Assembly: GCA_018004645.1 (NCBI GenBank)
Contig: JAGNBV010000012.1
Span: 1-49,590, forward strand
From: Bacteroidales bacterium
GTDB lineage: Bacteria; Bacteroidota; Bacteroidia; Bacteroidales; CAIWKO01
DNA length: 49,590 bases
Direction of reading: 5' to 3'
The position numbers and the translations under genes are program-made. Shown piece by piece: positions 1 through 10,864 of the stretch; the first letter of the stretch is position 1, and each line of letters begins with the position of its first letter. The notes beneath the pieces are model-generated. The model did not search any database. It was given only the letters and a program-made list of their open reading frames with translations, and was not told the DNA's origin.

Positions 1-450
1 CCCTTCGCTGCTCTGTGAGTCATCCGTATGTCTGTTACGGCTCCTTTCTGCAACTACTATGACCTCTGCTGACCTCCCGACAAGCTTGGCTTCGTCGGGA
101 CATCCCCCGGTAAGAGCTTTTTCCTTCTGCCAATTGCTGCTGCATTTACATTATTGAGTTCTTTTATTCTTGGGGCGTTAGTATGCGTGGCTACCTTACC
201 CATTCAATAATGCCTCTGTATGCAGTTTTTATTCATCAGCACCAGCTTTTGCAGTCTCGCTTCCTTCACTCCTATCGTTACCGATAACGAGCTTGCGACT
301 TACTAATGTTTCGGAGAACCACCTCCGCACATAAGGGACTTACACCCTCTGGAAAAATACACCCATCTCTTTGCTTTTTAAATAAAATTTGTATTTTTGA
401 ACTATTTATAAAGCTTTGAGGTGGGTGTGCGCTGCTCATGCAGGGCACAC
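1..450 (-). mobile_element. Group II intron, 5' portion (truncated by window edge)
   Basis: Read on the minus strand, position 450 begins GTGTGCCCTGCATGAGC, which fits the GUGYG 5' end of bacterial group II introns. It is followed by a typical domain I block (AGGGTGTAAGTCCCTTATGTG, near 350-330) and, further in, by GGTCAGCAGAGGTCATAGTAG (near 80-55), the kind of sequence found shortly upstream of the intron-encoded reverse transcriptase/maturase. No reverse transcriptase reading frame is inside the window; it should lie left of position 1. The intron is oriented opposite to the neighbouring hsd genes and starts 3 nt beyond the base of a large palindrome. Intron class is not determined. The call rests on remembered sequence patterns of the family, not on a covariance-model search. 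Confidence 0.7.
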
Positions 451-453
451 CAC

Positions 454-562
454 GCGGTATAAAAAATTGCCGGGTCAGTAGGTTATTCAATGGTTGTAGC
501 CCGCTTTAACCTTTATGTAACTTGACAGGAAATCGCCCGCAATCGGCAACTTTTCATACCGC
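454..562. repeat. Large imperfect palindrome, attC-like, left end of RM module
   Basis: An 18-nt arm at 454-471 (GCGGTAT...TTGCC) and its inverted partner at 545-562 (GGCAA...ATACCGC) match at 16 of 18 positions. Both mismatches (A461/C555 and A466/C550) become T-G wobble pairs on the minus strand, so the minus strand folds better, as is known for integron attC sites, which recombine as the bottom strand. The 73-nt interior has no gene. The group II intron begins 3 nt outside the left arm. The call 'attC-like' is inference from shape and context; a plain DNA hairpin or relic terminator is the alternative. Confidence 0.45.
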
Positions 563-566
563 CACC

Positions 567-575
567 GTTGGCAGC
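567..575. repeat. 9-bp core-like sequence at left boundary of the RM module
   Basis: GTTGGCAGC lies just right of the left palindrome and is the exact reverse complement of GCTGCCAAC at 8420-8428, which begins the right palindrome. In integron cassettes the first bases of a cassette are complementary to the inverse core at the start of that cassette's own attC, which is the relation seen here. The first seven bases (GTTGGCA) deviate from the classical GTTRRRY core at two positions, so this is suggestive only. A second short direct repeat, GGACGACA, occurs at 585-592 and 8404-8411. Confidence 0.35.
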
Positions 576-774
576 AAGTGTAAAGGACGACACAACCACG
601 ACAAACAGACGACTAAAAACGAACAGAAATTAAACCATTTTGACAGGTGACCAAAGACATAGAAATGATATTGAAACAGGCCAGCTTCTAAACCGACACG
701 CTGACCGACCCTATTTTTTTTATTTTTTTCCCACCGCACATTTTTTAAAAAACAATTTTAGCCAGCCGCACGGT
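576..774. other. Non-coding stretch between left boundary and hairpin repeat
   Basis: A/C-rich, low-complexity DNA with a T-rich run near 711-730 and a TTTTTTAAAAAA palindrome near 741-752. The 86-codon frame that starts at 640 runs through the T tract and the downstream hairpin and has an unprotein-like composition, so I see no gene here. Confidence 0.4.
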
Positions 775-832
775 CAAGCACATTTGGTTTTTTCCAACGC
801 ACAAGCCAACGCAAAAAAACCAAAAGAGCTTG
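775..832. repeat. Hairpin repeat, copy A (upstream of XRE-hsd operon)
   Basis: The left arm at 775-793 (CAAGCACATTTGG plus six T) pairs with the right arm at 813-832 (seven A, CCAAAAGAGCTTG) around a loop containing GCACAAGCCAACGCA (799-813). It shares with copy B at 8210-8278 the outer arm CAAGCACATT, the opposing arm AAAGAGCTTGC, the 15-nt loop word and the same two unpaired positions (ACA against TCT). The inner stem differs between copies but stays paired. This is compensatory change, so it is a real structured element. Function is unknown. Confidence 0.65.
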
Positions 833-891
833 CCCCTTCCCACCCACGACAATACAGTGGACATTTACACTATTTATCAGGGAGTTTTTAC

Positions 892-899
892 TACATTTG
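892..899 (+). promoter_or_regulatory. Bacteroidota -7 promoter element for the XRE-hsd operon
   Basis: TACATTTG fits TAnnTTTG and lies 26 nt before the XRE start codon, giving an expected leader of about 20 nt. A short inverted repeat AGTG-N8-CACT begins near 856, roughly 35-50 nt upstream of the predicted transcript start, and could be an operator for the XRE protein. That last point is speculative. Confidence 0.5.
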
Positions 900-925
900 A
901 CGTGTTATAAATTAATTAGGATTCT

Positions 926-1126
926 ATGAACCGAATTAAAGAAGTGCTTAAGGACAAAGGAATTTCTCAAACGTGGTTGGCGAACAAAATGGAAAAGAGT
1001 TACAACACCATTAATGAGTATGCTCGTAATGTAAGGCAACCAAGTTTGGAGGACTTATACCGAATTGCGGAAATCCTTGACGTTGACATCAAAGTATTAA
1101 TTGTTTCAAACAAGAAGAAAATATGA
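926..1126 (+). CDS. XRE-family HTH regulator, putative control protein of the type I RM operon
   Basis: A 66-residue protein that is essentially one Cro/C1-type helix-turn-helix: the scaffold GISQTWLANKMEKS, then YARNVRQPSLEDLYRIAEIL around residues 13-50, and a short basic tail. It would bind operator DNA as a dimer. Its TGA overlaps the hsdM ATG (ATGA, 4 nt), so the two are translationally coupled and the regulator heads the operon. Small C proteins of this family control restriction gene expression mainly in type II systems, so a role timing methylation before restriction is plausible but inferred. The start is supported by AGGA upstream and a -7 promoter at 892. Confidence 0.8.
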   Translation: MNRIKEVLKDKGISQTWLANKMEKSYNTINEYARNVRQPSLEDLYRIAEILDVDIKVLIVSNKKKI

Positions 1127-3894
1127 ATAAGCAAAAACTTGCAGCAAAAATTTGGGCATCTGCAAATCAGATGCGTTCAAAAATTGAAGCTAACGAATAC
1201 AAAGACTACATATTAGGTTTCATCTTTTACAAATACTTATCTGAGAAGGAACTGCAATTTGCAAAGAAGGAAGACTTCACTGAGGCAGACATAAAAGCAT
1301 TGAGCGAAGAAGACACAGAAACTGTTGAACACATAAAAAGCAACATCGGCTACTTTATAGCTTATGACAATCTATTCTCAACATGGATAAGCATGGGCAA
1401 AGACTTTGATGTTGCCAATGTTCGTGATGCACTTTCTGCTTTTAGCCGCTTGATAAGCCCTGCACACAAAAAACTGTTCGACAACATTTTTGATACTTTG
1501 CAAACTGGTTTGAGCAAATTGGGTGACAGTGCAGCTTCGCAAACAAAAGCAATTCGTGACTTGCTGCATTTAATCAAAGATATTCCAATGGACGGCAGGC
1601 AAGACTATGATGTGCTTGGCTTTATTTATGAATACTTGATTGGAATGTTTGCTGCAAATGCAGGAAAAAAAGCAGGAGAGTTTTACACTCCGCATGAAGT
1701 TTCAGTTTTGATGTCGGAAATTATTGCACATCATTTAAGAGACAAAAAGGAAATTCAAATCTATGACCCGACAAGTGGTTCGGGTTCTTTGCTTATCAAT
1801 ATTGGTAGCAGTGTTGCAAAGCATATTGATGACGAAAACAATATAAAATTCTATGCCCAAGAATTAAAAGAAAACACCTACAACTTAACTAGGATGAACC
1901 TAGTAATGAGAGGACTTTTGCCAAACAACATTATCACAAGAAACGGAGACACATTAGAAGATGATTGGCCATACTTTGATGAAAACGACCCAATACACAC
2001 TTACAATCCGCTTTATGTAGATGCAGTAGTTTCAAATCCACCTTATTCGCAAAAGTGGGACCCAACTCACAAAGAAGCTGACCCACGTTATTCACGGTTT
2101 GGTCTTGCACCGAAAGCAAAAGCAGATTACGCTTTCTTACTCCATGACCTTTTTCACATCAAGCCTGATGGCATTATGGCAATTGTATTACCTCATGGCG
2201 TTTTATTTCGTGGTGGTGAGGAAAGTGTAATTCGTGAAAAACTGATTGAAGCAAATCATATTGATACCATCATTGGTTTGCCACCAGCGATATTTTTTGG
2301 CACAGGTATTCCGACAATCGTAATGATTCTAAAACAAAAACGTGCCAACACAGATGTTTTAATTATTGATGCTTCGAAAGGATTCGTCAAAGAAGGAAAA
2401 AACAACAAACTAAGAGCATCAGACATTAAACGTATAGCTGACAGTGTTCGTGACCGTGAAACATTGCCCAAATTTTCAAAAGTTGTAACACGAGAAGAAA
2501 TCAGAGAGAATGAATATAACCTGAACATTCCACGTTATGTTGATTCTTCTGAAAACCCCGAAAGTTGGGATATCTACGCTTCTATGTTTGGTGGTATTCC
2601 TGAAAATGAAATTGACGACTTGCAAATATTTTGGGAAGCCTTTCCTGCACTTCGAGATACCTTATTTGCTAAAAACTCACCCATCAATTCAAACCTAATT
2701 GTAGATGACATCAACACTGCAATAAAGGAACACAAAAGTGTTCAAGTATTTGTAAACGGTTTCAATAAAGCATTTGCAGATTTTGACAGTTTCTTGAAAA
2801 CGGAATTATTAACCAACATTCTAACTGTAAAAATCAACAGAGAGAAAACGGTTTTGAGTGATGACATATTTAAGCGACTGGAAGACATCAAACTGATTGA
2901 TAAATATGAAGCCTACCAGTTGTTAGACAATGAATGGGATGTAATAAAAGTTGATTTGGAGATTATCCAAACAGAGGGTTTTGAAGCAACAAGAACCGTT
3001 GACCCAAACATGGTTACTCGTAAAAAAGACGGTGTTGAACAAGAAGTGCAAGACGGTTGGGTGGGAAGAATTATGCCGTTTTTACTGGTGCAAGAAACCT
3101 ATTTGAAAGACGAGCTAAATAGTTTGAGAGCCAAAGAAAATAGAGTTGTTGAAATAGCAACAGAGTTAGAAGAAATCATTGATTCACTTTCAGAGGAAGA
3201 AAGGGAAACAAGTATTTTAAATGATAATAATGATGCTTTTGTGGTTAAAGAACTCAACGAATATCTGAAAGAGATTTTTGCTGATGTTGAAACCGAAGAA
3301 ATAAAAGCATTAAAGGAATATTTAAACTTATTGGAGAGCAGAGCCAAGAAGCCAGAGAAAGAAAGCTTCATCAAATCATGTAAAACGGTTGATTGGTCTA
3401 AAATGGAAGCAAATAATGATGGCACTTTTGGCAAGGCGACCATCAACAAATACTTATTTGAATTACAATCAACATTTACTTTCCCTGATGAGACTTTTGA
3501 AAGCAAGATGGTAAAGGCATCTACTTTATTGGCAGATGAAAAAGAATTGAAAGCCAAAATAAAAGTTGAAGCGGCAGCACTTCATTCAAAGACCAAAGAA
3601 ACCATTGAAACCCTAACAGACGAACAAGTATTTGAATTGCTCGAATTAAAATGGATTGTTCCTGTTGTTACTTCTTTGAACAAATTGCCCGAAACCATCA
3701 TCACTCAATTGACCAACAAGGTGCAGGCATTGGCAAACAAATACGCCATTACCTACTCAGACGTAGCCAAAGAAATTAAACAAGCCGAAAGCACCTTATC
3801 ATCATTGATTGGCGACTTGGACGGAAACGAGTTTGACATGAAAGGATTGAACGAATTGAAGTCACTTTTAAAAACCGAAGAGCAAAATGGCTAA
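1123..3894 (+). CDS. hsdM: Type I restriction-modification DNA methyltransferase subunit M, with long C-terminal extension
   Basis: N6-adenine methyltransferase subunit of a type I RM complex (M2S methylates; R2M2S cuts). Seen: HsdM N-terminal helical domain (residues about 5-150), EFYTP (186-190), SAM-binding motif DPTSGSGSLL (215-224) and catalytic SNPPYS (304-309). At 923 residues it is much longer than the roughly 500-550 of classical HsdM; residues from about 520 onward are charged and largely helical with no motif I can name. They may help hold HsdS or HsdR. The gene overlaps the XRE gene by 4 nt and hsdS by 8 nt. By eye the module is richer in A+T than the tpiA region, consistent with horizontal acquisition. 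Confidence 0.93.
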   Translation: MNKQKLAAKIWASANQMRSKIEANEYKDYILGFIFYKYLSEKELQFAKKEDFTEADIKALSEEDTETVEHIKSNIGYFIAYDNLFSTWISMGKDFDVANVRDALSAFSRLISPAHKKLFDNIFDTLQTGLSKLGDSAASQTKAIRDLLHLIKDIPMDGRQDYDVLGFIYEYLIGMFAANAGKKAGEFYTPHEVSVLMSEIIAHHLRDKKEIQIYDPTSGSGSLLINIGSSVAKHIDDENNIKFYAQELKENTYNLTRMNLVMRGLLPNNIITRNGDTLEDDWPYFDENDPIHTYNPLYVDAVVSNPPYSQKWDPTHKEADPRYSRFGLAPKAKADYAFLLHDLFHIKPDGIMAIVLPHGVLFRGGEESVIREKLIEANHIDTIIGLPPAIFFGTGIPTIVMILKQKRANTDVLIIDASKGFVKEGKNNKLRASDIKRIADSVRDRETLPKFSKVVTREEIRENEYNLNIPRYVDSSENPESWDIYASMFGGIPENEIDDLQIFWEAFPALRDTLFAKNSPINSNLIVDDINTAIKEHKSVQVFVNGFNKAFADFDSFLKTELLTNILTVKINREKTVLSDDIFKRLEDIKLIDKYEAYQLLDNEWDVIKVDLEIIQTEGFEATRTVDPNMVTRKKDGVEQEVQDGWVGRIMPFLLVQETYLKDELNSLRAKENRVVEIATELEEIIDSLSEEERETSILNDNNDAFVVKELNEYLKEIFADVETEEIKALKEYLNLLESRAKKPEKESFIKSCKTVDWSKMEANNDGTFGKATINKYLFELQSTFTFPDETFESKMVKASTLLADEKELKAKIKVEAAALHSKTKETIETLTDEQVFELLELKWIVPVVTSLNKLPETIITQLTNKVQALANKYAITYSDVAKEIKQAESTLSSLIGDLDGNEFDMKGLNELKSLLKTEEQNG

Positions 3895-5050
3895 AACAAA
3901 CACAAATCCCGAAGTCCGTTTTGCTGGTTTTACAAAAGATTGGGAAGAAAAAGACTTTTCAAATGAAGTTGAATTTTTCAGTGGTTTAACTTATTCTCCA
4001 ATCGATATTGTAAAGGAAGATGGGACATTTGTAATAAGGTCTTCCAATATTCAGGATGGTAAATTCGTAGATGCAGATAATGTATATGTAAACAGTAGCA
4101 AAGTAAATTGTGAATTTGTAAAGAAGAATGACATAGCAGTTGTAGTGAGAAATGGTTCAAGAGATTTAATTGGTAAACACGCTCAAATAAAGAGAAACAT
4201 TAAAAATACTGTTGTCGGTGCTTTTATGACTGGAATTCGTTCAGAAACACCAAATTTTATTAATGCGTTATTAGATAGTGAAAGTTTTAAGAGAGAAATA
4301 AATAAAAATTTAGGTGCAACAATAAATCAAATTACCACTGGAAACTTTAAACAAATGAAATTTTGTTTTCCTGATGATAAGATTGAGAAGGAAAAAATCG
4401 GAAACTTTTTTGAAAACATAGACAATCTAATAACCGAGCACCAACAAAAACACTCTAAGCTTAAATCGCTTAAACAAGCTATGCTCGACAAAATGTTTCC
4501 CAAGCAGGGGCAACTTGTTCCAGAGCTTCGTTTTAACGGTTTTGAGGGTGATTGGATTCAAAGCGATTTGAAAAACATACTAAGTTTTCAATATGGTATT
4601 TTTAACAACAACCCAAATAATGGAGGTGAATATCCAGTTTATGGAGCAAACGGTGTGATTGGGGGATATACAGAATACAATGCTAGTGATTCCGTGGTAA
4701 TAGGCCATATGGGAGAATATGCAGGTATAGTTTTATGGGCAGATGGAAAGCATTTTGTTACCTATAATGGAATTATTACTAAAACTAAAAATGAAGAACT
4801 GCTAACTAAGTTTGGTTATTATATGTTAAGCAAAATGGATTTAAGAAAAATTTGTGACGGAAGTGGACAACCATTTTTATCATACGCCATACTTAACAAC
4901 ATAAAGGGTAACTATCCAAAATCTCATGATGAGCAAAATCAAATTTGCAAGTATTTTGAAAATTTTGATAGCTTAATTGGTAAATATGGACTTCAAATAA
5001 CCAAACTAAAAAACATAAAACAGGCATTTTTAGCCAAAATGTTTGTGTAA
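3887..5050 (+). CDS. hsdS: Type I restriction-modification specificity subunit S
   Basis: Recognises the two half-sites of the target DNA and docks M and R subunits. The 387 residues show the expected pseudo-twofold design. Each half opens with a matching phrase (PEVRFAGFTKDW near residue 9, PELRFNGFEGDW near 212), contains a variable target-recognition domain, and closes with a conserved helix (KLKSLKQAMLDKMF, KLKNIKQAFLAKMF). The first eight bases overlap hsdM. No second or silent hsdS copy and no flanking inverted repeats are seen, so shufflon-type phase variation is unlikely here. Confidence 0.93.
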   Translation: MAKTNTNPEVRFAGFTKDWEEKDFSNEVEFFSGLTYSPIDIVKEDGTFVIRSSNIQDGKFVDADNVYVNSSKVNCEFVKKNDIAVVVRNGSRDLIGKHAQIKRNIKNTVVGAFMTGIRSETPNFINALLDSESFKREINKNLGATINQITTGNFKQMKFCFPDDKIEKEKIGNFFENIDNLITEHQQKHSKLKSLKQAMLDKMFPKQGQLVPELRFNGFEGDWIQSDLKNILSFQYGIFNNNPNNGGEYPVYGANGVIGGYTEYNASDSVVIGHMGEYAGIVLWADGKHFVTYNGIITKTKNEELLTKFGYYMLSKMDLRKICDGSGQPFLSYAILNNIKGNYPKSHDEQNQICKYFENFDSLIGKYGLQITKLKNIKQAFLAKMFV

Positions 5051-5065
5051 ATACATTGAATAGAA

Positions 5066-8000
5066 ATGACATTTAAATCAGAAGCAGAATTTGAAGAAGC
5101 ATTGATACAAGCCCTTTCTAAAAAAGGATGGGAAAAGGAGGTTTTGAAACGTCCTACTGAAAAAGACTTGCTCCAAAATTGGGCAAACATACTTTTTGAA
5201 AATAACAGAGGCAAAGACCGTTTAAATGACTTTCCGCTTACTGAGGGGGAAATGCAACAGATTTTGGAGCAGATTAATGCTTTAAGAACTCCTTTGAAAC
5301 TAAACGGCTTTATCAATGGCAAAACAGTTTCAATAAAAAGAGATAACCCAGCAGATGAATTACACTTTGGTAAGGAAGTGAGTTTAAAAATTTATGACAG
5401 GCTTGAAATTGCAGCAGGACAAAGCCGTTACCAAATTGCACAACAACCAATTTTTCCAACCCAATCTAAAATATTAAACGACAGACGTGGCGACTTAATG
5501 CTTTTAATCAATGGAATGCCATTGATTCATATTGAATTAAAAAAGAACGGAGTTTCAGTAAGTCAAGCCTGTCATCAAATTGAAAAATATTCAAGAGGTG
5601 GCGTTTTTTCGGGCTTGTTTTCACTCGTTCAAATTTTTGTGGCAATGGAACCAAAAGAAACTGTCTATTTTGCCAACCCTGGCCCTGATGGCAAATTCAA
5701 TAAAGACTTTTATTTCCGTTGGGCAGATTTTAACAATGAGCCAATAAACGACTGGAATGATATTGCTTCTTCGTTATTGTTTATACCGATGGCTCACCAG
5801 TTAATTGGTTTTTACACCGTAGCAGATAGCAACGATGGTGTTTTGAAAGTAATGCGGAGTTATCAATACTTTGCTGCAAATGCCATTTCAGATAAAGTTG
5901 CTAAAACCGATTGGAAAAGCAAACATGCTTTAGGCGGTTATATTTGGCACACCACAGGTTCGGGCAAAACCATGACCAGTTTTAAATCTGCCCAACTTAT
6001 TGCCAATTCGCAAGATGCAGACAAAGTAATTTTCTTAATGGACAGGATTGAACTCGGCACACAATCGTTAAAAGAATATCGTGGTTTTGCAGACGAAAAC
6101 GAAGACGTACAAGCAACAGAAAATACTGGCGTTTTGGTTACTAAACTTAAAAGTTCAGATCCTACCAATACGTTGATTGTAACTTCTATTCAAAAAATGA
6201 GCAACATCAAAGATGAAGAAGGTGGGCTAAATGCTCACGACATTTTGCTCATGAATAAAAAGCGAATTGTTTTTATTGTAGATGAAGCACACCGTTCCAC
6301 TTTCGGTGATATGCTAATTACAATCAAAAACACTTTTTCATCTGCTATTTTCTTCGGGTTTACAGGAACACCTATTCAAGACGAGAACCAAAAGAAAATG
6401 AATACCACATCAACCGTTTTTGGTGATGAGTTACACAAATACAGTATTGCAGATGGTATTCGAGATAAAAATGTTCTTGGTTTTGACCCATACAAAATAC
6501 TTACATACAGAGACCGTGATTTGCGATTAGCTGTTGCTTTAGAAAAGGCAAGAGCCAACGATGAAACAGAAGCATTGGCAGACCCAAGAAAAGCTAGAAT
6601 ATTTAATAAGTTTATGACCAGAGTTAGAATGGCTGGTCATTTTGAAACTTCAGGTAGATATGTTGGGGGAATTGAAGATTATTTGCCCACTTCACAATAT
6701 GACCGTGATGAACACCACCAAAAAGTAGTTGAGGACATTCTAAGAAACTGGATAGTTCTAAGTCAAAACGGAAAATTCCACGCCATATTTGCGACAAGTA
6801 GTATTGCTGATGCAATACTTTATTATCGTTTGTTTAAATCAGAAAATCCAAACTTAAAAATCACCGCATTATTTGACCCTCACATTGACAACAACGGGAA
6901 CACCGAATACAAAGAGGACGGTCTAGTTGAAATAATGACCGACTACAACGAAAGGTATGAGCAAGATTTTAGACTTGCTAACCATGCCAAATTCAAAAAA
7001 GACATTGCAGCAAGACTGGCACACAAAGAACCTTATTTAAGGATTGATTCGGCACCACAAAAGCAAATAGATTTATTGATTGTGGTTGACCAAATGCTTA
7101 CAGGATTTGACTCCAAGTGGATAAACACGCTTTACATGGATAAGGTGCTTGAATATGAAAATATCATTCAAGCTTTTTCAAGAACTAATAGGCTTTTTGG
7201 TCCTGACAAACCTTTTGGAACAATTCGCTATTACCGTAAGCCTCATTCTATGGAGCGAAACATTAATGATGCGATAAAATTGTATTCAGGCGATAAACCA
7301 ATTGCACTTTTCGTTGAGCATTTAGATTCCAATCTCAACTCAATGAATTATTTTTTCAGTGAGATTCAAAACTTATTCATAACGGCAGGTATTGATAATT
7401 TCGAGAGACTTCCAGATGATTTATCTGAAAGAGGAAGATTTGCTATTCTATTTAAAACTTTCAACAATCACTTAGAAGCAGCAAAAATTCAAGGTTTCAA
7501 TTGGAACAAATCAACATACAGTTTTGGAAAAGGAAAAGACAAGGTAACCATTGAAATGGCATTGGACGAAAACAATTACTTGATATTGGCACTTCGTTAT
7601 AAAGAGCTGTTCAATACTGGTGGTGGTGGCGGAGGCGGTGACGTGCCTTATGAAATTGAAGGTTACTTGACTGAGATAGACACAGACAAAATTGATGCAG
7701 ACTACATGAACACCCGATTTGACAAGTATTTAAAAGAACTTGTCAAAGGAGATGTTGACCCATTAGAATTGCAGAACACTTTGGATGAATTATTTAAATC
7801 GTTTGCTGCTCTAACACAGGAAGAACAGAAATATGCAAACATTTTTATTCATGACGTTCAAAGTGGTATCGCCAAACTAGAAAGCGGAAAGACATTTAGA
7901 GAGTATATCACAGAATACGAGTTCAACGCAAAGAATGACCAAATAAAGAAAATCTCAACACTACTCGGACTTGATGAACCAAAACTTCGTTCACTTATGT

Positions 8001-8194
8001 CATCTGGCTTGACAGAGGCAAATATCAACGAATACGGGCGTTTTGACGAATTAAAAAGCACTGTTGACAAGGACAAAGCAAAAGCATATTTTGAAAAAGC
8101 AGAAGGGACAACTATTCCTGCTTTCAAAGTAAATATTAGAGTTCACAACTTGTTACAAAGGTTTATAATTGAAGATGGTTTTGACATTGAATAA
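5066..8194 (+). CDS. hsdR: Type I restriction endonuclease subunit R (motor and nuclease)
   Basis: Restriction and DNA-translocation subunit. Seen in order: a PD-(D/E)xK nuclease domain (D143 in RRGDLML, then IELKK with E157 and K159), superfamily 2 helicase Walker A TTGSGKT (about residues 297-303), DEAH box in IVDEAHRSTFG (about 405), GFTGTP, then helicase motifs through TRTNR-like SRTNRLFG. A seven-glycine run (about residue 852-858) joins the helicase part to the C-terminal helical region that contacts M/S. The length of 1042 residues is normal for HsdR. It follows hsdS after 15 nt and looks intact, so the system should be functional. Confidence 0.95.
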   Translation: MTFKSEAEFEEALIQALSKKGWEKEVLKRPTEKDLLQNWANILFENNRGKDRLNDFPLTEGEMQQILEQINALRTPLKLNGFINGKTVSIKRDNPADELHFGKEVSLKIYDRLEIAAGQSRYQIAQQPIFPTQSKILNDRRGDLMLLINGMPLIHIELKKNGVSVSQACHQIEKYSRGGVFSGLFSLVQIFVAMEPKETVYFANPGPDGKFNKDFYFRWADFNNEPINDWNDIASSLLFIPMAHQLIGFYTVADSNDGVLKVMRSYQYFAANAISDKVAKTDWKSKHALGGYIWHTTGSGKTMTSFKSAQLIANSQDADKVIFLMDRIELGTQSLKEYRGFADENEDVQATENTGVLVTKLKSSDPTNTLIVTSIQKMSNIKDEEGGLNAHDILLMNKKRIVFIVDEAHRSTFGDMLITIKNTFSSAIFFGFTGTPIQDENQKKMNTTSTVFGDELHKYSIADGIRDKNVLGFDPYKILTYRDRDLRLAVALEKARANDETEALADPRKARIFNKFMTRVRMAGHFETSGRYVGGIEDYLPTSQYDRDEHHQKVVEDILRNWIVLSQNGKFHAIFATSSIADAILYYRLFKSENPNLKITALFDPHIDNNGNTEYKEDGLVEIMTDYNERYEQDFRLANHAKFKKDIAARLAHKEPYLRIDSAPQKQIDLLIVVDQMLTGFDSKWINTLYMDKVLEYENIIQAFSRTNRLFGPDKPFGTIRYYRKPHSMERNINDAIKLYSGDKPIALFVEHLDSNLNSMNYFFSEIQNLFITAGIDNFERLPDDLSERGRFAILFKTFNNHLEAAKIQGFNWNKSTYSFGKGKDKVTIEMALDENNYLILALRYKELFNTGGGGGGGDVPYEIEGYLTEIDTDKIDADYMNTRFDKYLKELVKGDVDPLELQNTLDELFKSFAALTQEEQKYANIFIHDVQSGIAKLESGKTFREYITEYEFNAKNDQIKKISTLLGLDEPKLRSLMSSGLTEANINEYGRFDELKSTVDKDKAKAYFEKAEGTTIPAFKVNIRVHNLLQRFIIEDGFDIE

Positions 8195-8209
8195 AATATT
8201 GCCCACGCA

Positions 8210-8278
8210 TTTGCAAGCACATTGCCAAAGCAGCACAAGCCAACGCACAGACCAAAGCTTTGTCAAAGAGCTTGCAAA
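8210..8278. repeat. Hairpin repeat, copy B (downstream of hsdR)
   Basis: Arms 8210-8231 and 8257-8278 start with nine perfect pairs (TTTGCAAGC with GCTTGCAAA), have the same ACA/TCT mismatch as copy A, then pair again through CAAAGC with GCTTTG. The loop has the shared word GCACAAGCCAACGCA. It begins 16 nt after the hsdR stop codon. It lacks a T tract on the plus strand, so it is not an obvious terminator. Confidence 0.65.
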
Positions 8279-8419
8279 GCCAACGCAAGACAAAATTGTT
8301 TTTAAAAAAAAATTCCCGACCCTTCAAAAAAAATAAAAAACGCCACGAACAACCCGACAGACAATGACACGGAAACTCAACAATGACAATGGTTTACGGA
8401 CACGGACGACAGAACACCA

Positions 8420-8515
8420 GCTGCCAACACATAGAGCGATAGCCGAAAAGCCCTAAAACGAAAGCCCGAAAGAATTGACACTCTTTCGGGCTTTTTGGTC
8501 TATCGCCTGTTCAGC
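8420..8515. repeat. Large imperfect palindrome, attC-like, right end of RM module
   Basis: Nested pairing: GCTG-cc-AACA (8420-8429) with TGTTCAGC (8508-8515), leaving two extra bases; GCGATAG (8436-8442) with CTATCGC (8500-8506); and an inner 12-bp stem (8461-8472 with 8483-8494). The left and right spacers differ in length (6 nt and 1 nt), giving extrahelical bases of the sort seen in attC sites. Its first nine bases complement GTTGGCAGC at the left boundary. If it is an attC-like site, the cassette would span about 568-8509. No integrase gene is present, so this is inference. Confidence 0.45.
8461..8496 (+). terminator. Rho-independent terminator hairpin after the hsd operon
   Basis: A perfect 12-bp stem, AAAGCCCGAAAG with CTTTCGGGCTTT, 10-nt loop, and T run 8492-8496 on the plus strand. 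A second AAAGCCC just upstream (8447-8453) could pair alternatively with GGGCTTT. It lies about 270 nt downstream of hsdR and forms the inner stem of the right palindrome. Confidence 0.7.
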
Positions 8516-8591: not shown

Positions 8592-8668
8592 TTCGGGTTT
8601 AAGTTTTTTTTGTTTTTTTTACATTTTATAGTTTTATCGTGAAAAAAAGCCGTTGTCAGAAGTCCATT

Positions 8669-9133
8669 ATGAACAAAAAAAATTCTATCGAATGTCTTTT
8701 CAGGCTCAAGACATTTTTCTTTTCAGCACTGGCAGCCTCAATGTTTATGACAATTTCGTGCAGCAACAGCACTGACAACATGAATTCACAGACCGCTCCA
8801 GATTCTCAGAAAACTGCAAAACAGGATACTGTGATCGACAAAATGCCTGAATTTCCAGGTGGCGAAGCAGCCATGACAAAATTCATTGTCGACAATGTAA
8901 AGTATCTTGAAGCAGCAAAAAAAAGCGGAATTCAGGGCAAAGTTTATGTAAACTTCCTGGTAACCAAAAACGGCAAAATCGACAGCGTAAGAGTTGAGAA
9001 AAAAGTAAATGAATTGCTTGACAAGGAAGCCTTACGCGTGATATCCTCGATGCCCGACTGGATACCCGGTGAGAACAAAGGAGTTGCCATAGATGTTCAA
9101 ATGACTTTACCCATCTCCTTTAAATTGGAGTAA
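8669..9133 (+). CDS. Lipoprotein with TonB C-terminal (energy transducer) domain
   Basis: An N-terminal hydrophobic stretch ends in MTISC, an imperfect lipobox, followed by a Ser/Asn/Gln-rich linker and a TonB-C-like domain (DKMPEFPGGEAAMTKFI, then GKVYVNFLVTKNGKIDSVRVEK, then ISSMPDWIPG). In the family this domain contacts the TonB box of outer-membrane receptors, but many Bacteroidota carry small lipoprotein or transmembrane versions of unknown partner. I chose ATG 8669; a GTG at 8639 in frame adds ten residues and cannot be excluded. It is a single gene between the RM island and tpiA, with no ExbB/ExbD nearby. Confidence 0.75.
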   Translation: MNKKNSIECLFRLKTFFFSALAASMFMTISCSNSTDNMNSQTAPDSQKTAKQDTVIDKMPEFPGGEAAMTKFIVDNVKYLEAAKKSGIQGKVYVNFLVTKNGKIDSVRVEKKVNELLDKEALRVISSMPDWIPGENKGVAIDVQMTLPISFKLE

Positions 9134-9248: not shown

Positions 9249-10037
9249 ATGAGAAAAAAAATTATTGCAGGCAACTGGAAAATGAATACTACCCTTCCCG
9301 AAGCCAGAGCGCTGGTGGAAGGCATCTTAAATGGCGTAGCCGGTAACCCCGATATTGTGAACCGTGAATTTCTCGACATCATTATTGCACCGCCATTTCC
9401 TTTTCTGACTACCTGCAAGGACCTCATCGGGAAGCATCCCGGAATTTATACCGCGGCACAAAACTGTTACTCCGAAGAAAAAGGAGCCTATACCGGGGAG
9501 GTGTCGGCAGCCATGGTCTATTCCACAGGCGCCAAATATGTCATCATAGGCCACTCGGAACGCCGCAGCTATTTCCGCGAGAACAGCGCCATGCTGATGA
9601 AAAAGGTGGAACTTGCTTTGCAAAACAATTTGAAACCAATTTTCTGCATTGGCGAAGTTTTGGCCGAACGCAAGTCGGAAAGACATTTCAAAGTTATCAG
9701 GCAGCAACTGACCGAATCGGTGTTTACATTGAAAGAAAGCGATTTTCGCAGGATCATCATCGCGTATGAGCCGGTCTGGGCCATAGGCACAGGCCTCACG
9801 GCCACACCCGGGCAGGCGCAGGAAATGCATGCGTTTATCCGGCAGTTGATCAGTGTGAAGTTTGGCAGAAAAACCGTCGACCATATACCGCTGTTGTACG
9901 GCGGCAGTTGCAATGCACAAAATGCCGCTTCGCTGTTTGCCATGCCCGACGTGGATGGCGGCCTGATTGGCGGCGCCTCGCTCAAGGCCGGTGATTTTGT
10001 TTCGATGATAACTACGCTTTCACAAATCAGCAAATGA
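9249..10037 (+). CDS. tpiA: Triose-phosphate isomerase
   Basis: Interconverts dihydroxyacetone phosphate and glyceraldehyde-3-phosphate in glycolysis and gluconeogenesis. Catalytic residues are all visible: Lys11 in AGNWKMN, His102 in IIGHSERR, Glu174 in AYEPVWAIGTG, and the phosphate-binding YGGSCNAQNA and GGLIGGAS loops. At 262 residues it is slightly longer than the usual 250. The last four bases overlap the prmA start (ATGA), so the two are translationally coupled. Confidence 0.97.
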   Translation: MRKKIIAGNWKMNTTLPEARALVEGILNGVAGNPDIVNREFLDIIIAPPFPFLTTCKDLIGKHPGIYTAAQNCYSEEKGAYTGEVSAAMVYSTGAKYVIIGHSERRSYFRENSAMLMKKVELALQNNLKPIFCIGEVLAERKSERHFKVIRQQLTESVFTLKESDFRRIIIAYEPVWAIGTGLTATPGQAQEMHAFIRQLISVKFGRKTVDHIPLLYGGSCNAQNAASLFAMPDVDGGLIGGASLKAGDFVSMITTLSQISK

Positions 10038-10864
10038 ACTACCTTGAACTAAACTGCGAAATTTTTCCTCCCCGGCATACCGAAATTGTGATGGCAGCCT
10101 TTTCGGATTACGGCTTTGAGAGTTTTGAAGAAACCGTCAGGGGCTTTCGTGCCTACATTCCCGAACACCAATTTGATGAAAAAACCTTCAACACACTGGA
10201 AATTTTCGACCACAAAGAAATAAAAATCAACTACGCCCTGAAAAGCATTCCCGATCAAAACTGGAATGCCGTATGGGAAAGCAATTTCGAACCGGTAGAA
10301 ATAGGGAACCGGTGTTATATAAGGGCGCCCTTTCACCCGTCCAGGGAGGGCTTCGAATATGAAATCATCATCGAGCCCAAAATGTCGTTCGGCACAGGCC
10401 ACCACGAAACCACCCACCAGATGGTCAGCCTGTTGCTGGAAGAGGATGTCCGCGGCAAAGAAGTGCTCGATATGGGCTGTGGCACGGCCGTGCTGGCCAT
10501 ACTCGCCAAAAAAACGGGAGCCGCCGCTGTGTTGGCTATCGACAACGAAGAATGGGCTTACAACAACTCTCTCGAAAATATTGAAAAAAACAACACCCCC
10601 GAAATAGAAGTACTGCATGGCGACGCTGCTGCGATAGGCAGCCGCCTGTTCGACCTGATACTTGCCAATATAAACCGTAACGTATTACTGAAAGACATTC
10701 CCACCTATGCCGCTGCCCTCAAACAGCATGGCACTATACTGCTAAGCGGTTTTTATGAAACAGATGTTTCACAAATAACGAAAAAAGCCGCACAATACAA
10801 CCTGAAATTTATTCGTTATACCACGATGAATTCATGGTGTGCCGCAGTGTACACAAAAGATTAA
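10034..10864 (+). CDS. prmA: Ribosomal protein L11 methyltransferase
   Basis: SAM-dependent enzyme that methylates ribosomal protein L11 at several amino groups. The N-terminal substrate-recognition domain (about 1-100) is followed by MSFGTGHHETT (118-127), the SAM motif VLDMGCGTAVLAI (144-156), and ILANINRNV, the family's NPPY-equivalent region. The length of 276 is normal. It overlaps tpiA by 4 nt and is followed after 7 nt by the large secreted protein gene. Confidence 0.93.
   Translation: MNYLELNCEIFPPRHTEIVMAAFSDYGFESFEETVRGFRAYIPEHQFDEKTFNTLEIFDHKEIKINYALKSIPDQNWNAVWESNFEPVEIGNRCYIRAPFHPSREGFEYEIIIEPKMSFGTGHHETTHQMVSLLLEEDVRGKEVLDMGCGTAVLAILAKKTGAAAVLAIDNEEWAYNNSLENIEKNNTPEIEVLHGDAAAIGSRLFDLILANINRNVLLKDIPTYAAALKQHGTILLSGFYETDVSQITKKAAQYNLKFIRYTTMNSWCAAVYTKD

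Follow-up and report, generated by a model that had tools for sequence, protein, structure and literature searches.

How did a complete type I restriction-modification operon come to lie between two large palindromes at the end of a Bacteroidales contig? The window examined here (the whole 49,590-nucleotide stretch, contig 59 in the draft genome G000, which totals 3.29 Mb) contains a small helix-turn-helix (HTH) gene followed by complete hsdM, hsdS, and hsdR genes, recognized by Pfam and, for the hsd genes, by PADLOC. An earlier note on this DNA had proposed that the operon is packaged as a large integron-type cassette, or perhaps as a related undescribed mobile unit, since its core was not GTTRRRY and no integrase was present. 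Our analysis indicates that a single large cassette of a Bacteroidota integron-like array, served by a recombinase other than IntI, very probably carries the hsd operon. Both parts of the proposal gained support from relatives, in which tandem cassettes show the same complementarity and arrays are accompanied by a non-IntI recombinase and an attI-like GTT.

The cassette is delimited by its core pair and by cassette logic to ~7.9 kb of the plus strand (567–8509, the right limit being approximate). Its start core, GTTGGCAGC (567–575, plus strand), is the exact reverse complement of the inverse core GCTGCCAAC at the cassette end (8420–8428, plus strand), which confirms the nine-nucleotide match that had been noticed between these positions. 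On the plus strand of the window, GCTGCCAAC occurs as a single copy at 8420 (0.23 expected), and a search of G000 for near-identical copies of the boundary word returned an exact copy solely in the window. The cassette has a GC content of 36%, against 44% in the remainder of the window. DNA searches of 59 relatives from the same order placed the left palindrome in one dispersed family and the cassette tail (8195–8419, plus strand) in another. The tail resembles those of other cassettes from the order, with 77–78% matches in G027 and G015, and its G027 match stands immediately 5′ of an attC-like site. On contig 3 of G027, the two families alternate across ~60 kb, and a rule could be read from this locus: a cassette starts with GTT and six bases that are the reverse complement of the bases through AAC of its own downstream site.

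This rule was tested on sites picked by their palindrome alone, with the cores compared afterwards. Consecutive cores were perfect at 6/6 variable bases in 23 of 33 pairs, whereas random pairing gave 89 perfect pairs in 5000 (~2% expected), and the two cores of one and the same site matched in only 2 of 59 cases. Chained cores with attI-like starts were found at six loci of the order, in Algoriphagus ornithinivorans DSM 15282, Flavobacterium aciduliphilum DSM 25663, and Algibacter onchidii, and on a complete Chryseobacterium plasmid; in G449, a complete single-contig genome, more than 12 cassettes are chained. Some short or low-scoring chains outside the group with N-domain recombinases described below (for example L162, L184, and L194) have a single site each and were left out of the evidence. 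The earlier note had suggested searching for the boundary pair around other defence genes; the boundary words do recur there, with other cores. A different explanation would make the palindromes intergenic repeats or terminators with no role in recombination and the core match in the window an accident. The right hairpin does resemble an intrinsic terminator, and the left hairpin, taken alone, folds no better than shuffled sequences (z −0.28). Nevertheless, the perfect core pairs, together with the attI matches and GTT breakpoints presented below, exceed chance and contradict this explanation for the family, leaving it extremely improbable.

We next consider the sites themselves, which share a structure rather than a sequence. 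An alignment of 38 bottom-strand sites gave a 17-pair stem with compensatory changes at 16 of the 17 pairs, and 36 of the 38 have a G-T wobble at one stem position. The bottom strand folds more stably in 42 of 53 sites (p = 4 × 10⁻⁶). Thus, the family has the conserved, sequence-divergent bottom-strand hairpin of integron sites, and its tandem, one-direction cassettes have starts complementary to their own inverse cores. For the two extrahelical bottom-strand bases of integron sites, the alignment offers no clear counterpart, showing the conserved wobble and columns with small bulges. Within the cores, AAC and GTT do not vary, and the adjoining bases (as in GTTAGCAAC, GTTGTGCGT, and GTTGGCAGC) often violate RRRY; tested against the RYYYAAC/GTTRRRY core of IntI integrons, the family does not conform. 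The covariance model built from this alignment, R1, matched the left palindrome at 440–578 on the minus strand (94.8 bits, E = 5.3 × 10⁻¹⁹), and the left site is 90% identical to one site of the array in G002, a genome of the same genus. The two palindromes had been described as the bounds of a single unit; both exist, but the left one is the attC-like site of a preceding cassette rather than a paired end. The accompanying remark that mismatches in its left arm become G-T wobbles on the minus strand agrees with the wobble conserved in the family. Separately, a gene-less unit of ~125 nucleotides, GTTGAAGAAGAA...TTCTTCTTCAACG plus a 91-nucleotide hairpin, recurs between cassettes at L245 in G430 (contig C33), like a cassette consisting of a site only.

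Arrays of these sites have a recurrent head. In G027, the first cassette begins at a GTT 24 nucleotides past the stop codon of a 587-amino-acid tyrosine recombinase. The attI-like GTT mostly lies 24–230 nucleotides 3′ of the recombinase stop, and its core agrees with that of the first site in 9 of 9 cases, so that the arrays start, as integrons do, at an attI beside a recombinase gene. Comparison of six genomes of one genus showed nucleotide similarity extending through the recombinase gene, with no alignment passing attI: for pairs among G449, G460, G534, and G546, alignments cross a palindromic stretch and end at the GTT core, and for pairs with G476 and G413 they end before the GTT. The first cassettes differ. 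Many other contigs terminate 100–500 nucleotides past the recombinase stop, as would be expected if arrays vary within a population. Among the Bacteroidota loci, chained sites were found solely downstream of recombinases with an extra N-terminal domain. We also observed recombinases without this domain heading arrays of the same site family in G430, G438, and G588 (L245, L246–L247, and L250); these are transcribed away from their cassettes, which is the layout of classical integrons. Arrays on Chryseobacterium and Rufibacter plasmids also contain IS110-family transposases and a reverse transcriptase of a group II intron (L201 16272–20054 and L202 16938–17996).

The recombinases at these heads retain the catalytic residues R, K, H, R, H, and Y without exception. 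The IntI-specific domain was found in none of 20 aligned array-type recombinases and is present in a true IntI, L115. In a phylogenetic tree, true IntIs form one clade (support 100/100) separate from the array recombinases; uniting the Bacteroidota recombinases needs three changes, and a single clade is not proven. An array-type recombinase scored 217 bits against TIGR02249, below the cut-off of 265, and the best structural match of the predicted recombinase structure is VchIntIA (2a3v). The extra N-terminal domain, with a beta-beta-alpha-beta-beta-alpha fold, is usual in array recombinases and present in one to several copies. Its predicted fold resembles the SMARCAL1-type HARP domain only suggestively: 4o66 ranked first in Foldseek, yet with E = 0.37; a Pfam HARP match reached E = 0.05 in one protein only; and VIA-align gave its best Z (4.3) to folds other than HARP. 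These matches do not reach significance for a HARP identity.

Could an ordinary integron, or a cluster of attC sites lacking integron integrases (CALIN), account for the arrays instead, with a canonical IntI, perhaps in another host, moving the cassettes and the Bacteroidota recombinases being bystanders? The sites follow the logic of attC, group IIC introns are known to associate with integrons, the arrays contain a group II intron and IS110 elements, and one relative, G010, does encode a true IntI. That IntI, however, is the only one over the curated cut-off among the 59 relatives, whereas R1 sites occur in 44 of them. Moreover, the non-IntI recombinase adjoins array and attI in unrelated families, and cores such as GTTAGCAAC are incompatible with GTTRRRY. 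We therefore regard an ordinary integron as very unlikely. As an observation on the IntI itself, the protein of G010 (L066/L115, contig C50) scores 367 bits with the integrase_gron model in this one relative of the same order.

Beyond the order, R1 sites were present in 114 of 198 sampled Bacteroidota genomes (58%). Sites occurred in 70 of 78 genomes with a family recombinase (E at most 1 × 10⁻⁶⁰) and in 44 of 120 others (Fisher p = 3 × 10⁻¹⁴; cross-table compiled by hand from the site and recombinase outputs). Among 61 cassettes, the median length was 968 bp, and the longest open reading frame lay on the array strand in 58. Anti-phage functions look common among the cassettes, judging from sampled cargo of the G449 array: a reverse transcriptase, a UvrD-type helicase, an Eco47II endonuclease, a DndB-like protein, an Eco57I-type methylase, an AIPR protein, and a MutH-like protein. 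In G000 itself, the model matches four sites, and the contig ends inside the array. On its contig C78, a second cassette (L063 4447–9294) carries a complete type III restriction-modification pair, from a GTTAGGCAC start to the complementary inverse core and a model-matched site. Elsewhere in this locus, a stretch of ~90 nucleotides (L063 ~9648–9744) has further copies at several positions in G001, G003, and G042. No recent sharing of one cassette between arrays was found except for a 242-nucleotide match of the window tail in G027.

Returning to the window, the right-hand end of the hsd cassette is its least typical part. The cassette's own site (8426–8511) is a strong hairpin (fold z −4.4) whose AAC and GTT ends lie 83 nucleotides apart, with a terminator-like inner stem. 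It follows the correct inverse core, yet its sequence type differs from that of R1 sites, and membership of the R1 family was rejected, there being no match even at E = 10. Its sequence AACACATAGAGYGATAGCCGAAAAG is found once more in the genome, behind a different core and a different gene (G000 contig C80, L227 4712–4747). A further comparison comes from G076, where a homologous hsd operon shows ~84–87% identity, the specificity gene excepted. Its flanks are unrelated to those of the window, a situation that the earlier note had named as telling against a cassette. G076 does have such flanks, but the operon there is followed at its 3′ end by an attC-like site that R1 matches with 73.6 bits, as expected of a mobile cassette.

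These right-hand features raise the possibility that the left site is genuine while the hsd operon arrived by another route, the right palindrome being a host terminator that stands behind the core word by chance. The lack of an R1 match would fit this, as would the different right end of the G076 copy, whose identity with the window ends at 8283. In contrast, a nine-nucleotide complement of the start core stands exactly where the cassette end should be, the tail before it matches cassette tails leading into sites elsewhere, and the sequence after it recurs behind a different core in the same genome. Arrival by another route is very unlikely. The interpretation as a cassette nevertheless has several observations to answer besides the missing R1 match. 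The C80 copy of the right-site sequence is half a site only. In G076, the right inverse core reads AAA in place of AAC and the left boundary core is missing. An N-domain array recombinase was sought in G000 and not found, the search returning only a 305-amino-acid relative that matches the catalytic part. The proposed empty site joining 567 to 8510 was not found in related genomes: at the triosephosphate isomerase (TIM) locus of same-genus genomes, the TonB gene that follows the cassette in the window and the hsd genes are absent, and the DNA upstream of TIM is unrelated. Finally, no recombination was observed, and recombination, strand choice, and insertion direction are what we infer from the anatomy, the core rule, the covariation, the attI breakpoints, and the association with the recombinase.

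If the cassette interpretation is correct, these elements would work together as follows. Each cassette starts with GTT and about six cassette-specific bases, ends with their reverse complement and a hairpin site (mostly ~120 nucleotides), and usually carries one gene or operon read one way. In an intact array, a tyrosine recombinase gene, usually with the extra N-terminal domain, stands at the head, and the first cassette begins from the GTT of a nearby attI-like site. The bottom strand of a site may fold in single-stranded DNA and be cut by the recombinase at the GTT core; the enzyme would then join a cassette circle to attI or to a different site, leaving a start core derived from the cassette's own site. 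The hsd cassette would be the last of its array, joined to chromosomal DNA through its atypical site, and a group II intron would later have struck the core of the site that belongs to the preceding cassette.

The left edge of the window preserves that junction. Positions 1–450 on the minus strand belong to a group II intron (Rfam RF02001 at 114–287, minus strand, E = 7.5 × 10⁻²³), of which the 5′ portion, cut by the contig end, lies inside the core of the left attC-like site. Window position 1 is the contig end, and the left neighbour of the hsd cassette is therefore absent from the assembly. The site itself (451–569, minus strand), of which the bottom strand folds, lacks its outer core. The intron 5′ end falls at 450/451, where the core junction reads TACCGCGTG^GTGTGCCC, compared with the uninterrupted TACCGCGTG^TTGGCAACC of G002; because this intact homologue shows the uninterrupted core, we read the insertion point as a core position, between G and TT. 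The published position of group IIC-attC introns is TTGT/T, one base away from the window junction. With its group II intron inserted on the bottom strand at the R'' core, the window shows the group IIC-attC arrangement, the intron itself being assigned at group II level by Rfam.

Within the cassette, all four genes are on the plus strand. A small XRE/Cro-like HTH regulator (926–1126; Pfam HTH_3, E = 2.1 × 10⁻¹¹) precedes the HsdM DNA methyltransferase (1123–3894; N6_Mtase, E = 4 × 10⁻¹⁰⁰; PADLOC MTase_I), the HsdS specificity subunit (3887–5050; Methylase_S; Specificity_I), and the HsdR restriction subunit (5066–8194; HSDR_N, SWI2_SNF2, and EcoR124_C; REase_I), and with hsdM, hsdS, and hsdR together the window holds a full type I system. 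The flanking DNA begins with a gene for a TonB C-terminal domain (8639–9133, plus strand; Pfam TonB_C), followed by the chromosomal genes for TIM and PrmA (9249–10864, plus strand; Pfam), the TIM-prmA order being common to same-genus genomes.

Relatives of the array recombinase also turned up beside resistance genes. On an Acinetobacter plasmid (L204 4576–6705), and in the same layout at L205, tet(X3) lies directly behind a 5′-truncated recombinase (tpnF/xerD) that clusters with an Aquiflexum array recombinase (support 100/97). A half attC-like site (GGCTACTAACA...) seemingly lies 3′ of tet(X3), with mismatching cores and a weak, partial model match of 11 bits. On a Klebsiella michiganensis plasmid (L203 5136–6757), a truncated recombinase of the array family, 49.8% identical to a G002 protein, precedes blaVEB-3. 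Both contexts were rejected as working cassettes, as they hold recombinase stubs but no matching attI or end core.

Taking these observations together, we lean slightly towards a broader joint proposal: Bacteroidota may possess an integron system of their own, run by a different Xer-like recombinase lineage in which a putative hairpin-reading N-terminal domain replaces the IntI-specific domain; it would occur in over half the phylum, move multi-gene defence systems as cassettes, and be the source of recombinase stubs next to resistance genes, tet(X3) among them, that have now spread in other phyla.

How does this system compare with known ones? The Bacteroidota arrays share with Vibrio-type chromosomal integrons (IntI, attC) their tandem one-direction cassettes, an attI adjacent to the gene for the recombinase, structured sites with GTT/AAC cores and stronger bottom-strand folding, cassette starts complementary to their own inverse core, group II introns and insertion sequence elements within arrays, and, in VchIntIA, the best structural match. 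They differ in a recombinase that lacks the IntI-specific domain, falls outside the IntI clade, and usually both carries the extra N-terminal domain and is co-directional with the cassettes; in cores of ~9 nucleotides that go beyond GTTRRRY; in the conserved stem G-T wobble; and in some large cassettes holding whole operons. The system is thus integron-like by anatomy but fails on the IntI domain and on the GTTRRRY core, both of which were tested. The additional domain is a defining trait of IntI in integron papers (PMC9668308). For Bacteroidetes proper, IntegronFinder 2.0 reported a single complete integron, that of Salinibacter ruber, in addition to earlier In0 elements (PMC9024848), and surveys that use this domain find almost no integrons in Bacteroidetes (PMC9024848), as against sites in 58% of the Bacteroidota genomes sampled here. 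A description of this integron-like system was not found in the literature searched, subscription journals and preprints being outside its coverage; because that literature is silent, and because the IntI domain is absent and the cores are not confined to GTTRRRY, we rate the system as a variant not previously described. If recombination is confirmed, a major gene-capture route would have been overlooked in a phylum dominant in gut, soil, and water, the IntI domain would be dispensable for an integron, and the arrays would provide a ready index to mobile defence systems, with entire type I and type III restriction operons among their cassettes. G000 resembles a CALIN in having four model-matched sites and no array recombinase found; it differs in that its sites belong to a new family and in that the assembly breaks at the array, so that loss of the recombinase is not demonstrated. 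With simple tyrosine recombinases of the Xer/XerA type, the Bacteroidota enzymes share the catalytic domain and the conserved R, K, H, R, H, and Y, but they head cassette arrays and have one to several copies of the N-terminal beta-beta-alpha-beta-beta-alpha domain. The hsd operon, finally, resembles other type I restriction-modification systems in its complete HsdM, HsdS, and HsdR and its small HTH gene, and differs from them in being borne on a cassette of ~7.9 kb.
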